Source: an uncultured bacterium (GTDB lineage Bacteria; Calescibacteriota; Calescibacteriia; Calescibacteriales; Calescibacteriaceae). From it: 64,000 bases of DNA. The stretch is from NCBI GenBank assembly GCA_938036315.1, contig CALHPK010000006.1, positions 1 through 64,000 of the forward strand, in the 5' to 3' direction. Position numbers and translations under genes: made by a program. The notes beneath the pieces were generated by a model. The model did not search any database. It was not told the DNA's origin and saw nothing but the letters and a program-made list of their open reading frames with translations. Each line of letters starts with the position of its first letter. The first letter of the stretch is position 1. Below are positions 78-5,846 of the stretch, piece by piece.

Positions 78-1718
78 ATGCAAAAATATGATGCAATAGT
101 CGTTGGAGCGGGAATAAATGGGCTAGCTTGTGCTTGTTATCTCCAAAAATCGGGATTGAAAACATTAATTCTTGAAAAAAGAAACGAGTGTGCCCCGTTT
201 GCCCTTACAGAAGACATATTCGGAGCCGGAATTCCGGTAGATACTCACGCTGGAGTTTGTTTCCTACCAATGAGCCCAGTCTGGGGAGATCTCGAGCTTG
301 ATAAATTCGGATTCGATCTTATCGTAGCTGTCCCAGCTGCAGCAACTGTATGGGAAGATAAAAATATAATCTGGTATCTCAACCCAGAAAAAACATACGA
401 GTCCTTATCAAAGTTCTCAGAAAAAGATGCCAAAACATTTGTCGAGATAGCATCAAAAATTGCTCCAGATATCCCAGAAATTCTTGAAACCTGCGTTTTC
501 TCTCAGGCAGAAGATAGTAAGTTAGATTACTTTTGGAATCTATCAAAATACTTTGGATTTCCCCCGCGTGATTTCAAAAGTATGAACGCATTTGAGCTTC
601 TGGATCTTATTTATGAGAATGAATGGGTAAAAACAGCTGCGTTCGGAGCTATGGATATTGCTGTATTTGGGGATCCAGCTGAAAAAGGAGAAGGAGCCGT
701 GATGGCATCTCTTGCTTTCACAATAGCAATTGGAGTTCCTCGCGGAGGAATGCATACTTTGCCTCATTCTCTCATTCGTTGTTTCAAGTATCATGGGGGA
801 ACTTTATTTCTAAACGCCCCAGTTGCCAAAGTTGAAAATAAGGAAGGAGGTGGATTCAGAGTTGTGTTGGATGAATCCGCTCCATATCCCGAAAAAGAAT
901 TCATTTCAGATATTGTGGTTATGCATACAAGTCCGCCTGTTTCACTCCAAATAATTGATAACGATCTCCTGAAAAGAGAGGATGAGGAACTTTACAAAAA
1001 AATGGTAGAGTGGGATATGACAGGACACTGTGCCTTCACTTCGTACTTCCTTATGAGAGATATAAAATGGAGATCCGAAAATTGGAATCCAGATGTGCAG
1101 AAAGTTCCGTTTCCACTGAGAGCCTATAACTCCTGGGAGCATGCGAAAATATCAAAACAAAAGGTGAAAAATGAAGAAGTCTTAGATATTATAGGAGATA
1201 TCGCTGAAATGTATAATTTGTCAGCGGTTGACACTTCAAGGTCACGTGGGGGATACAAAGTACTTGTTTTTGAGATGGAATATCCTATAAATTTGAGAAG
1301 ATATGGTGGGATAAAAAGATGGGATGATAGAGAATTTGTCAATATAATACACAATGGGCATATAGAGCTCCTCTCTCGCCTTATCTTGAATTTCAAAGAA
1401 AATCTTGTGTCAAGTACATATTTTACACCAATAGATAATTGGAGAAGAAATCCTTCAGCAATATACGGGCATGAGCTCGGAGGCGATGTGTCTGGTCCTC
1501 AGTGGTATACAGGAAGAATCCCACCACGCTCAAAAATACATGGACTTTATTTTTCGCAAGGAATATGGCCTGCCTCTTTGACCCATCTTGGAAACGGATA
1601 TGTTTGTGCAAAGCAGATAGCAGAGGATCTTGGAATAAGAAAAAAGCAAGAATGGTGGAGGTGGAGACCTTACGAGTATTTTTTAAAAAAGTTGCCAGAA
1701 TTAGAAAAAATACAGTAA
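78..1718 (+). CDS. FAD-dependent oxidoreductase, COG1233 (phytoene-desaturase-like) family, first paralog
   Basis: This 546-residue protein is a predicted flavin amine-oxidase/phytoene-desaturase-type oxidoreductase. Residues 5-35 form a dinucleotide-binding beta-alpha-beta with GAGINGLA followed by an acidic strand end (ILEKR). The C-terminus, around 495-530, has the second FAD-contact segment typical of the family (GLYFSQGIWP...GNGYVCAKQIAEDLG). Length fits COG1233. AGGAGG nine bases upstream supports the ATG. It begins a four-gene run with a paralog at 1816 and two small proteins. The substrate cannot be read from sequence: carotenoid, sterol-like or other polyene chemistry is possible, but no phytoene synthase or isoprenoid gene is nearby. 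Family assignment is firm; function is inference. Confidence 0.88.
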   Translation: MQKYDAIVVGAGINGLACACYLQKSGLKTLILEKRNECAPFALTEDIFGAGIPVDTHAGVCFLPMSPVWGDLELDKFGFDLIVAVPAAATVWEDKNIIWYLNPEKTYESLSKFSEKDAKTFVEIASKIAPDIPEILETCVFSQAEDSKLDYFWNLSKYFGFPPRDFKSMNAFELLDLIYENEWVKTAAFGAMDIAVFGDPAEKGEGAVMASLAFTIAIGVPRGGMHTLPHSLIRCFKYHGGTLFLNAPVAKVENKEGGGFRVVLDESAPYPEKEFISDIVVMHTSPPVSLQIIDNDLLKREDEELYKKMVEWDMTGHCAFTSYFLMRDIKWRSENWNPDVQKVPFPLRAYNSWEHAKISKQKVKNEEVLDIIGDIAEMYNLSAVDTSRSRGGYKVLVFEMEYPINLRRYGGIKRWDDREFVNIIHNGHIELLSRLILNFKENLVSSTYFTPIDNWRRNPSAIYGHELGGDVSGPQWYTGRIPPRSKIHGLYFSQGIWPASLTHLGNGYVCAKQIAEDLGIRKKQEWWRWRPYEYFLKKLPELEKIQ

Positions 1719-1815
1719 AGATAATTAATATGTATAAGACTACCAAACGGAAGGTTGTTTATAAATTTTTATTAGAATAAATTAGTAAAAATTATATAAA
1801 AGAGGAGGTAAAGAT

Positions 1816-3411
1816 ATGGATTATGATGTGGTAGTAGTAGGAGCTGGTCCAAATGGTTTAACTGCTGCTGGATACCTTGCAAAACTCGGATTGAAAGTTG
1901 CTGTGCTCGAACAGTATGTTGAGACTGGAGGAGGACTTGTCACTCAGGAGATATGCGGGTTTAAGCTGAATCACCACGCAACCTATATGCTCTTGGGTGA
2001 GCTTATGCCCCCATTCAAAGAGCTTGAACTTGAAAGGTGGGGTGTAAAATTCATAAGACCAGAAAATCAGATCGCCTTCCTTTTCAAGGATAAAAAGTCT
2101 CTCGTTTTCTATACAGATATAGAAAAGACAAAGGAGCAAATTGCTAAATTCTCACACAGCGATTCCGAAAACTTCCTTAAAATGTTTAAGGAGTTTGAAC
2201 AGATGTTTTATGACTTCCTCCTCCCAGCAACATACTATCCACCAGTAGAAGTAATAACCCAAACTGAAAAACTTCAAAATTCAGATGAACTTGGGAAAAA
2301 AATTGCAGAAATATCAGAGATGACCCCTGTCGAAATACTCGATCACTACAATATAAAAGACAAAAGAATAAGGGGCGCTCTCCTTTACATAATCTCAATG
2401 TTTGGTCTTGAGCCAGATGAGTCTATTGGCTTCCTTGTCCCAATATATGTTGTGAGAGTTCTTAACTCGGCTATTGTCAAAGGAGGTTCTCATCACCTTG
2501 CATCATCTTTGCGCAGAGTAGTTGAGTCATCAGGAGGTCATGTTATTACTTCCTCAAAAGTGAAAAAATTCCTTATAAAAGATGAGAGTTGCTATGGAGT
2601 AGAGCTTGAGAATGGAACTCAGATCAAATCAAAAGTAGTAGTCAGTACATTGAACCCTGAGCAGAATTTTGCAGAACTTATGGAACAATACAATGGAGGA
2701 ATCTTTGATGATCTAAAAGATATTGCTCAAAGGTGGGAGTGGGAGAGATTTTCACTGTTCATTGCTCATAGGGGAATTAGTGGAAAGCCACCAGCATACT
2801 TTGATGATGAAGCATCAAAAAGCTTAAATGTAGTTATGGGTTATGAAAGTGATGACGATATAATGGAGCACATAAAGGCTTGCGAACAAGGGAAACTGGT
2901 AGTAAAGGGTCATGGTTCTTGCCTTTCTCTATTTGACCCTCTTGTTGTGCCAAATCATGTATCCTTTGCTGAGCATCATCTTCTCAGATGGGAATGTTGG
3001 GCTCCATACAAAGAGTGGACATTCCAGGAGAAGAAAGATTTTGCACAAAAATGCTTTGATTTCTGGTGTGAATACTCCCCCTCTCTTGCGGAGTCTAACG
3101 TGATAGTTGAAATTGCTTGGTCCCCAAAAGATATCCAAGATCAAACTCTTACAATGAAGAAAGGCTCAATAAAGCATGGGGCGTATACATCTTTGCAGAT
3201 GGGATACAATAGACCTTCTCCTGAGTGCTCATCAACAAGGACTCCTATCAAGAACCTTTACCTTGGTGGTGCATCAGTTCATCCAGGTGGAATGGTGATC
3301 TTGGGACCGGGGTATATCTCTGCTAAGACTATAGCTGAAGATCTGGGCGTTGAGTGGAAATTTGGAGAACTTGAGATGATAGAGAAAGCAAAGAAAAGGG
3401 GATATTTATAA
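1816..3411 (+). CDS. FAD-dependent oxidoreductase, COG1233 (phytoene-desaturase-like) family, second paralog
   Basis: A 531-residue paralog of the preceding gene. The N-terminal nucleotide-binding fold carries [13 protein letters not shown] (about residues 9-21) and ends in VLEQ; ETGGG near residue 36 is the usual second glycine-rich contact. The C-terminal FAD motif is around 490-520 ([15 protein letters not shown], then [13 protein letters not shown]). AGGAGG at 1803-1808 supports the ATG. The 97-base gap after the first paralog and the five-base run into the next Shine-Dalgarno suggest one operon. The two paralogs differ widely outside the FAD motifs, so they probably act on different substrates or as a heteromer, which is inference. 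Confidence 0.88.
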
Positions 3412-3425
3412 AGGAGGTGGAGAAA

Positions 3426-3938
3426 GTGAGACTTTGGTCGAAAGGACTTGGAAAACTTATTCTGCCTTTCGAGATAGATAAAGCTGAGAGTATTTCTGAG
3501 TACGATGACGGTGGCAGAAAAGTAATTCTTATTCAGGGCAGGATCATAGAAAAAAAAGTAAATTGGCCATACAAGATATACCTTGATATTGATGATATGG
3601 TAAGATTCACAGCATTTATGGCTAAAAACAATATCATACTTAGTTATATAAAGTCTTACTGTGGTTATAGATTCATTATATCTACACTGTCGCTGATGCT
3701 CAGAACCATTTTTTTGTATTTACCTGTAGTCATCTTCGAAAAAGTTGTGAGTTTTTTCAAGGGTATTTTCGCATTCAGAAAAGGAGTTAGCCAAGTAAAA
3801 CCTTCAGCACAGGATCAGAAAGTTATGAACTACAAAACTGAGAGTGTAGAAATAGGAAAAACAGAAAATGTTGAAGAAAAAGGAGAGTCAGATACTGTAG
3901 CAATTGAGCAAGTTCAAGCGGGGGGTAAAGCGCAATGA
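3426..3938 (+). CDS. Unknown protein with WSKGLG N-terminus, flavoprotein-associated (larger)
   Basis: I do not recognise a known family. I place the start at GTG 3426, because AGGAGG at 3412-3417 lies eight bases upstream; a GTG at 3417 would sit inside that site. The 170-residue product then begins MRLWSKGLG, matching MKFWSKGLG of the next gene. After about 85 soluble residues there is a hydrophobic segment (about 92-120), then a charged, low-complexity tail rich in Lys, Glu and Val. Alignment by eye with the next product also shows similar spacing of an acidic-Tyr motif, a Trp and an Asp (WPYKIY...DD versus WNYTMT...ND). It may anchor or assist the oxidoreductases at the membrane; this is inferred only from linkage. 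Confidence 0.72.
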   Translation: MRLWSKGLGKLILPFEIDKAESISEYDDGGRKVILIQGRIIEKKVNWPYKIYLDIDDMVRFTAFMAKNNIILSYIKSYCGYRFIISTLSLMLRTIFLYLPVVIFEKVVSFFKGIFAFRKGVSQVKPSAQDQKVMNYKTESVEIGKTENVEEKGESDTVAIEQVQAGGKAQ

Positions 3939-4267
3939 AGTTTTGGTCAAAGGGGCTCGGTTTGAGAAGTCATCTTAATATAGCAGTTGGAACAGAAATT
4001 CCAAAGTATGAAAATCAGTTCATTGTACTTTATGGAACAACCCTACCACCTGTTGTCTGGAACTATACAATGACTATGGGAGTCAACGATTTCCTATCTA
4101 TTTTAAAGGTCGGTTTTACTAAAACTTTCCTGAGCTTTCTCCTTTCTCCAAAAAGAGTGTTTAGTGCTTTGAAACTACTATTTTATATATTCTTGATACT
4201 TGTGAAGTTTCCATTTGTATCAAGGCTGATAATTGAACAAAAAACCGATACCGAAGCTGTTAATTAA
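3935..4267 (+). CDS. Unknown protein with WSKGLG N-terminus, flavoprotein-associated (smaller)
   Basis: A 110-residue protein of unrecognised family whose ATG overlaps the previous stop codon (ATGA), indicating translational coupling. It starts MKFWSKGLG, like its neighbour, so the two are probably ancient paralogs. The first 60 residues look like a small beta-rich domain; residues 65-100 are hydrophobic and basic (KLLFYIFLILVKFPF) and could form a membrane anchor. It closes the four-gene cluster with the two COG1233 oxidoreductases. Function is unknown; a shared role as membrane-docking partners is a guess from position and duplicated architecture. Confidence 0.72.
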   Translation: MKFWSKGLGLRSHLNIAVGTEIPKYENQFIVLYGTTLPPVVWNYTMTMGVNDFLSILKVGFTKTFLSFLLSPKRVFSALKLLFYIFLILVKFPFVSRLIIEQKTDTEAVN

Positions 4268-4416: not shown

Positions 4417-4779
4417 CTATACTGAGAGTTTATCTATCATTTCTTTTATGAATTCGTACGGGGGGAGCGGTAGATATTTACCGTCTATAAAATACACTCG
4501 GCAGGTTAGTCCACCTGGATTTTGCCTGCTTCCTTCTTCGTCTATATCTTTGTCGTTAACTGTAATTGTTGGGGATCCAGGGAATCTTAATTTTTCCGCC
4601 TCAATATCGGTTTTCACTTCGATTACTTCAAGTTCAAATTTTTTACCTTTTTGACTCGAGATCTCATCTATAGCTTTTTTTACTCTTTCTAAAGCTAGAT
4701 TCCAGCTGGGACATCCTTCCCAGAAGAAAACTCGAACTTTATTAGTTTTATTATTATTATTATTTCTTTTTTCCCTCAT
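4417..4779 (-). CDS. Thioredoxin-fold small protein
   Basis: A 120-residue protein with a thioredoxin-like start (VRVFFWEGCPSW, Cys23), a cis-proline-type segment (FPGSPTITVN, 66-75) and a second cysteine at 93 in GGLTCRVY. The CxxC pair is not conserved: only one Cys lies in the active-site loop, as in some members of this group. The first 14 residues include five Asn codons in a row and are probably disordered. The ATG overlaps the stop of the deacetylase-like gene by one base (TAATG), so the two are translated together. Redox or metal-related function is a family-level inference. Confidence 0.7.
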   Translation of the reverse strand: MREKRNNNNNKTNKVRVFFWEGCPSWNLALERVKKAIDEISSQKGKKFELEVIEVKTDIEAEKLRFPGSPTITVNDKDIDEEGSRQNPGGLTCRVYFIDGKYLPLPPYEFIKEMIDKLSV

Positions 4780-5846
4780 TAATTAGAGAGCCACATACTA
4801 AAGTATTTTTGCGAATCAAGGAGTATTTTGTCTACTGTGTGTGTTGAGCTTGTGGTAACATCAGGATTTTTTATATCAGCCATAGTTAGGAGGACTTCCC
4901 TGACGGAGGAAGAGAGTCCATCAATGCTATATCCTCCCTCGAGGATGAAGACGAATCCTCGGGCTCTTGGAGCAGACCTTAATATGATATCGGTGATCAT
5001 TGCGAATCCCTCTTCAGTTAGATTCATATCTCCGAGTGGATCTTTATAATGGGCATCAAATCCTGCCGAAACTATAACTATGTGTGGATCAAATTTTCTT
5101 GATATTTCGGAGAAAATCTCTTCATAGATTTTTTTGTATTCGCCATCGGAAAGTCCAGAAGGTAAAGGAATGTTTATATTGAATCCCTTCCCTTTTCCCT
5201 CTCCGATCTCATCAAATTTCCCTGTCCCTGGGTAGAATGGATATCTATGAGTTGAAAAGTAAAGTACGTCATCTCTGCTATAGAATATTTCTTGGGTTCC
5301 ATTTCCGTGATGGATATCAAAGTCTACTATAAGTATCCTTTCAGCTCCCATTTCTTTAGCTTTTTCAGCTGCAACTGCTGCGTTGTTGTATATGCAGAAT
5401 CCCATAGCTTCTGAGATTGTTGCGTGGTGTCCTGGGGGTCTTGCTAGAACAAATATTTTTTTTAGTTTACCAGATATAACTGTCTCTACCGCTTTCCAAG
5501 ATGCATAAGCTGCTCGCAGTGCTACTGATGAGGTGTCAGGGGAATAGTAAGTATCTGAATCTATGTTCCCATAGTGTCCAGCAAGTCCCTCAACCATTTC
5601 AATATGCTCATGTGAATGAATTTTCCTGAGAAGCTCTTTAGTTTCGTGTATAGCTGGTTCGCCAAGTTCCAGGTGAGAAAATTTATCCCATAGTTTCCCA
5701 AATTTGAGCGTCTGTACTATGGCAGTTAGTCTAGATGGATTCTCGGGATGAGAGTAGAACGGCTTGTGCTCAAGGAATATTTCATCAAAAATGATTCCGA
5801 CTTCCTTCAATTTGTGGCTGGCTTCCAAAGTTTCAATTTGTGACAT
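4779..5846 (-). CDS. Histone deacetylase family amidohydrolase (AcuC/acetylpolyamine type)
   Basis: A 355-residue zinc deacetylase of the arginase/HDAC fold. The catalytic His pair is in RPPGHHA (His140-141). Zinc ligands are Asp177 and His179 in DFDIHHGNGTQ and Asp264 in SAGFDAH. The LEGGY motif with the transition-state Tyr306 is present. All key residues are intact, so it should be active on an acetylated substrate such as a polyamine, protein lysine or small molecule; bacterial members cannot be separated by motif alone. It lies first in a two-gene unit with the thioredoxin-fold gene, divergent from the iron-sulfur scaffold gene 112 bases away. Confidence 0.92.
   Translation of the reverse strand: MSQIETLEASHKLKEVGIIFDEIFLEHKPFYSHPENPSRLTAIVQTLKFGKLWDKFSHLELGEPAIHETKELLRKIHSHEHIEMVEGLAGHYGNIDSDTYYSPDTSSVALRAAYASWKAVETVISGKLKKIFVLARPPGHHATISEAMGFCIYNNAAVAAEKAKEMGAERILIVDFDIHHGNGTQEIFYSRDDVLYFSTHRYPFYPGTGKFDEIGEGKGKGFNINIPLPSGLSDGEYKKIYEEIFSEISRKFDPHIVIVSAGFDAHYKDPLGDMNLTEEGFAMITDIILRSAPRARGFVFILEGGYSIDGLSSSVREVLLTMADIKNPDVTTSSTHTVDKILLDSQKYFSMWLSN

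Follow-up and report, generated by a model that had tools for sequence, protein, structure and literature searches.

A conserved set of two COG1233 flavoenzyme genes and two small WSKGLG genes at the start of a Calescibacterota contig

The window analyzed in this study is a stretch of 64,000 nucleotides that starts at base 1 of a contig (C6) in a metagenome-assembled genome (MAG) of a hot-spring bacterium of the Calescibacterota (EM19). The genome is 1.87 Mb in size and 85% complete. Positions 78-4267 of the window hold four genes on the forward strand, named here A, B, s1, and s2. A (78-1718) and B (1816-3411) encode COG1233/CrtI-like flavin adenine dinucleotide (FAD) oxidoreductases of 546 and 531 amino acids, respectively, and are separated by 97 bp. 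s1 (3426-3938) and s2 (3935-4267) encode small proteins of 170 and 110 amino acids, respectively, both of the WSKGLG family described below. The s1 protein is of the KVNW type, with a hydrophobic middle-to-C-terminal stretch and a charged tail, and the s2 protein is of the PPVVW type. The better start of s1 is the GTG at 3426, which has a sequence resembling a ribosome-binding site (aaaggaggtg) upstream, and the ATG start of s2 overlaps the stop codon of s1 (ATGA). All four open reading frames were found where the first-pass annotation of this DNA had placed them. The region upstream of A is visible in three relatives only, and scans of the window for promoters and terminators gave no signal above that of shuffled sequence.

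A and B are homologous from end to end, with an identity of 24%. They resemble two alpha-beta oxidoreductases with covalent flavin, limonene dehydrogenase (CtmAB) and delta-24 sterol desaturase. Each subunit of the delta-24 sterol desaturase carries flavin mononucleotide (FMN) bound covalently to the histidine in the motif G-F-L/R-X-N/S-T/L-H-A, and this flavin-histidine motif is also present in both CtmAB subunits (PMC11061730). The motif GFKLNHHA of B fits the published consensus closely, and GIPVDTHA of A retains its T-H-A end; the histidine in each is therefore a candidate for the covalent flavin link. The carotenoid enzymes CrtI and CrtD have D-x-G-P at the same position. Among the related loci, the A subunits of a second layout (layout II, L031-L056) have a cysteine at the flavin-histidine position and those of Desulfobacterota (L026, L027, and L029) have a glutamine, while B still has the histidine in both groups. 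The flavin site of A is thus variable and the histidine of B is constant. The folds nearest to the AlphaFold model of B are CrtD and CrtI (PDB 4rep and 4dgk).

Both small proteins begin with MxxWSKGLG and share 27% identity over 59 amino acids (E = 3e-4 in a single comparison). A family profile built from nine members matched s1 and s2 alike, each at about 1e-30. In the core alignment columns of 61 family sequences, S5, G7, G33, and W41 are invariant, and M/V1, W4, K6, L8, G9, and D51 are nearly so. This conservation indicates that the similarity of s1 and s2, which the first-pass annotation had read from their shared start and the spacing of further Tyr, Trp, and Asp residues, is not due to chance. 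The start motif varies in some members (MKLASKGLG, MKLKSKGLG, and WSTGTG). The members share a conserved core of about 50 residues followed by hydrophobic helices, and the C-terminal halves of s1 and s2 are hydrophobic. The best 19-residue hydropathy window exceeded 1.2 in 48 of the 61 members and 1.6 in 20, so many members are amphipathic rather than clearly transmembrane. The AlphaFold model of s2 (mean predicted local distance difference test score, pLDDT, 81) has a small sheet of three strands and then the hydrophobic helices. Its first ten residues, which include WSKGLG, the most conserved motif of the family, have a mean pLDDT of only 59. Because this motif is conserved yet not ordered in the isolated model, the prediction suggests that it is a partner-binding site.

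The WSKGLG proteins are a real family that has not been catalogued. No member had a significant match in Pfam 2025 or NCBIfam 2026, the family profile found none among PDB sequences, and a Foldseek comparison of the s2 model with the PDB gave no match below E 0.6. Proteins of the s1 type from different phyla form one clade and those of the s2 type another (support 0.92 and 0.93 over 66 columns). Given these separate cross-phylum clades, s1 and s2 are old paralogs that have been retained side by side. They are fused in frame in Bacterium HR19 (281 amino acids, L053:7539-8384) and in Ca. Calescibacterium nevadense (299 amino acids, L038:7467-8366).

The motif Mx[LF]WSKGLG was scanned over a collection of 84,980 genomes and gave 33 loci, a number that undercounts the family since the strict motif was required. 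Close relatives of the set come from Ca. Calescibacterium nevadense (L038), Bacterium HR19 (L053), and a further MAG (L057), which places the source organism in the Calescibacterota (EM19). The other loci are from Nitrospirae, Desulfobacterota and other deltaproteobacteria, Myxococcota, Binatota, Actinobacteria/Acidimicrobiia, Chloroflexi/Dehalococcoidales, and an Archaeoglobaceae archaeon. A COG1233 gene lies less than 200 bp away on the same strand at 29 of the 33 loci. At the archaeal locus the COG1233 pair is 3.7 kb off on the other strand, and two loci are uninformative, one ending at a contig edge and one interrupted by a run of N. The order A-B-s1-s2 occurs in Calescibacterota, Binatota, Nitrospirota, and others. 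In Myxococcota, Acidimicrobiia, and many deltaproteobacteria, the order is s-A-B-s', where s' often starts on the stop codon of B, and Desulfobacterota have s-A-B.

The link was also seen at the level of whole genomes. Of 386 sampled genomes, 8 contained the family in a profile search. These were exactly the 8 genomes that had the closest B subfamily (E below 1e-220), and the 31 genomes with only weaker B-like matches all lacked a small protein (Fisher p 1.6e-8); because set-bearing loci had been used to build the profile for B, this link is specific to the subfamily and does not extend to all COG1233 proteins. We also looked for WSKGLG proteins occurring widely without the oxidoreductases, and no such pattern was found. 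The duplicated oxidoreductase with its duplicated small partner, as the first-pass annotation had described it, is thus a real, conserved unit, in which both small paralogs are kept beside A and B.

The neighbors of the set at loci elsewhere include TetR regulators, acyl-coenzyme A (CoA) dehydrogenases, CoA-transferase III, AMP-ligase, SDR, FAS1-dehydratase-like and OYE-type enzymes, and methylmalonyl-CoA mutase. These genes point to breakdown via CoA thioesters. In one Calescibacterota relative, cytochrome oxidase genes lie in the flanks, and the group has been described as capable of beta-oxidation as well as oxygen respiration (PMC4791363). The source genome encodes 11 acyl-CoA dehydrogenases, one of them next to a second COG1233 cluster on contig C16 (L090:4437-9511). 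This cluster has three consecutive COG1233 genes and no WSKGLG proteins. In its counterpart in Bacterium HR19 (L091), an SCP2 protein sits between two COG1233 genes. On the opposite strand of the window, 3' of the set (4417-5846), a small thioredoxin-like protein and a histone-deacetylase-type protein were recognized by eye. These opposite-strand genes are not part of the set. A gene with a histone deacetylase domain (Hist_deacetyl match) is also found near the set in Bacterium HR19 (L053:2722-3756).

COG1233 pairs without WSKGLG proteins likewise have small partner genes, with SCP2 or CoxG/SRPBCC proteins in place of WSKGLG. One or two SCP2 proteins or a CoxG-like protein lie between or after the pair (L091, L093, L094, L095, L097, L102, and L103), and one SCP2-like partner type has a C-terminal hydrophobic segment. 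A homolog of CoxG in Sulfolobus serves as the membrane anchor of a soluble flavoenzyme (PMC11962113). Considering these partners and the anchoring by CoxG, the simplest role to assign to WSKGLG proteins is docking at the membrane or handling of lipids. On proteobacterial plasmids (Diaphorobacter, Burkholderia, Novosphingobium, and Rhizobium), the gene after a single COG1233 gene encodes another uncatalogued protein, of 67-85 amino acids and with the motif GKIFGAMPM (L058:637-849, L058:9608-9811, L059:7563-7784, L110:5578-5811, and L111:5589-5846). One of these is misannotated as phosphoenolpyruvate carboxykinase. The GKIFGAMPM protein is possibly another dedicated small partner. These plasmid proteins (P0005-P0009) look similar in outline to WSKGLG proteins by eye, but a profile comparison matched just 14 columns at a probability of 3%, and we do not claim a relationship.

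With moderate confidence, we believe that the set encodes a single enzyme of the CtmAB/delta-24 sterol desaturase type, together with two accessory subunits that are dedicated to it and hold it at the membrane. A and B would form an alpha-beta flavoenzyme with one flavin in each subunit, the probable site of covalent attachment being the histidine of the N-x-H-A or D-T-H-A motif. The enzyme would draw electrons from a C-H bond adjoining a double bond in a water-insoluble substrate, probably isoprenoid or hydrocarbon-like, by desaturation or water-dependent hydroxylation. This oxidation may open the substrate to CoA-thioester formation and beta-oxidation-type breakdown. Both s1 and s2 would attach to the A/B core, probably by way of the WSKGLG motif at their N termini, and the hydrophobic helices toward their C termini would dock the complex at the membrane, the location of substrate and quinone. 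The first-pass annotation had suggested a heteromeric, membrane-associated redox system. Judging from the analogous CtmAB and delta-24 sterol desaturase, the heteromer is likely; the membrane association is proposed here on the basis of the hydrophobic or amphipathic C-terminal stretch.

Several observations weigh against this explanation. A hydropathy typical of classical transmembrane segments is reached in just the 20 members mentioned above. Catabolic genes are lacking in the flanks of the set, both in this window and in those relatives among the Calescibacterota that were examined. One of the 33 loci is a real exception to the linkage: on a Dehalococcoidales contig (L030/L148), two WSKGLG genes occur with no COG1233 gene in 7.5 kb, although the same genome carries ten B-like genes elsewhere. 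The delta-24 sterol desaturase was soluble when purified and was described as alpha and beta subunits only (PMC11061730). In the ctm operon of Castellaniella defragrans, ctmE and ctmF encode a ferredoxin (2Fe-2S) and a reductase (PMC4109377), and genes of this kind are absent beside the set. A possible kinship of s1 and s2 with the small genes ctmC and ctmD of that operon, suggested by the gene order, is a lead and not a result.

Two other roles for the small proteins were considered. They may be assembly or flavinylation factors with an SdhE-like role, each maturing one flavoprotein subunit and standing outside the working enzyme. Many loci with one small paralog per oxidoreductase subunit agree with this, as do the exposed conserved N-terminal motif and the Desulfobacterota loci, in which a single small protein goes with the change of the A histidine to glutamine. 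However, histidine-bearing COG1233 pairs without WSKGLG proteins exist, including the second cluster of the source genome, which weakens the idea. The Nitrospirae locus L025 has one small protein although the histidine is kept in both A and B, and two small proteins remain in layout II, where A has the cysteine. We regard a maturation role as unlikely. To a similar degree, we doubt a role of the small proteins as lipophilic carriers or electron shuttles that move substrate or quinone from the membrane to the active site. The SCP2 or CoxG-like proteins that replace WSKGLG at other COG1233 pairs apparently act in this way, and the C-terminal helices of the WSKGLG proteins are hydrophobic, but there was no fold match to a carrier, the core preceding the helices looks small for a pocket that would take up lipid, and there are no cofactor-binding residues. 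It is very improbable that A and B are carotenoid desaturases or ketolases with the small genes incidental: although their best NCBIfam matches are CrtO/CrtI-type models and the fold of B agrees, the scores are far under the cut-offs (156.5 bits against 1000 for CrtO at best and 80.4 against 238.1 for the CrtI family), the flavin-histidine motif replaces D-x-G-P, the small-gene linkage is conserved across phyla, and no phytoene/squalene synthase (PF00494) match was found in the eight set-bearing genomes, including the incomplete source genome. A carotenoid pathway was rejected on these grounds, and the earlier remark that carotenoid genes are lacking nearby is confirmed.

The link between WSKGLG proteins and COG1233 pairs across phyla appears to be unreported, and no paper with the motif was found among the open-licence literature. 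Oxygen-independent attack on allylic C-H bonds by alpha-beta flavoenzymes of this kind is characterized in only two cases, limonene dehydrogenase and delta-24 sterol desaturase; for the latter, the natural electron acceptor is not known (PMC11061730). The WSKGLG family, linked to relatives of these enzymes in about eight phyla, is a concrete candidate for the component that is missing at the membrane or at electron exit, and it can serve as a signature for locating such enzymes in uncultured microbes. A large group of proteins annotated as phytoene dehydrogenase is thereby separated from carotenoid synthesis.

Among known systems, CrtI and CrtD share with A and B the fold and the COG1233 sequence family. 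Unlike A and B, they lack the flavin-histidine motif and are unpaired enzymes, and the set has no carotenoid context. The delta-24 sterol desaturase of Sterolibacterium denitrificans is an alpha4-beta4 enzyme whose subunits are encoded by adjacent genes and are 26% identical, and relatives of it are reported in Acidimicrobiales and Deltaproteobacteria (PMC11061730). Adjacent alpha and beta genes and the flavin-histidine motif are likewise found at the set described here, and WSKGLG sets also occur in Acidimicrobiia and deltaproteobacteria. The closest layout is that of the C. defragrans operon, with the order ctmA-ctmB-ctmC-ctmD-ctmE-ctmF-ctmG, where CtmC and CtmD were hypothetical proteins with no relatives when published (PMC4109377). 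Two adjacent COG1233 genes are followed by two small hypothetical genes, as in A-B-s1-s2. The gene layout is therefore not wholly new, and the first-pass statement that no described system with it was recognized is not supported in that form. The CtmAB subunits are 27% identical, comparable to A and B, and both pairs carry the motif in both subunits; the organism and the substrate differ. We lean against, but take seriously, the broader idea that WSKGLG proteins are new obligatory accessory subunits of a widespread group of alpha-beta covalent-flavin C-H oxidizers, serving in membrane docking or electron exit, with CtmC and CtmD as unrecognized members. In that case, WSKGLG would be a mark of enzymes that attack hydrocarbons or isoprenoids in both bacteria and archaea, and the known enzymes would have been studied without their natural partners.

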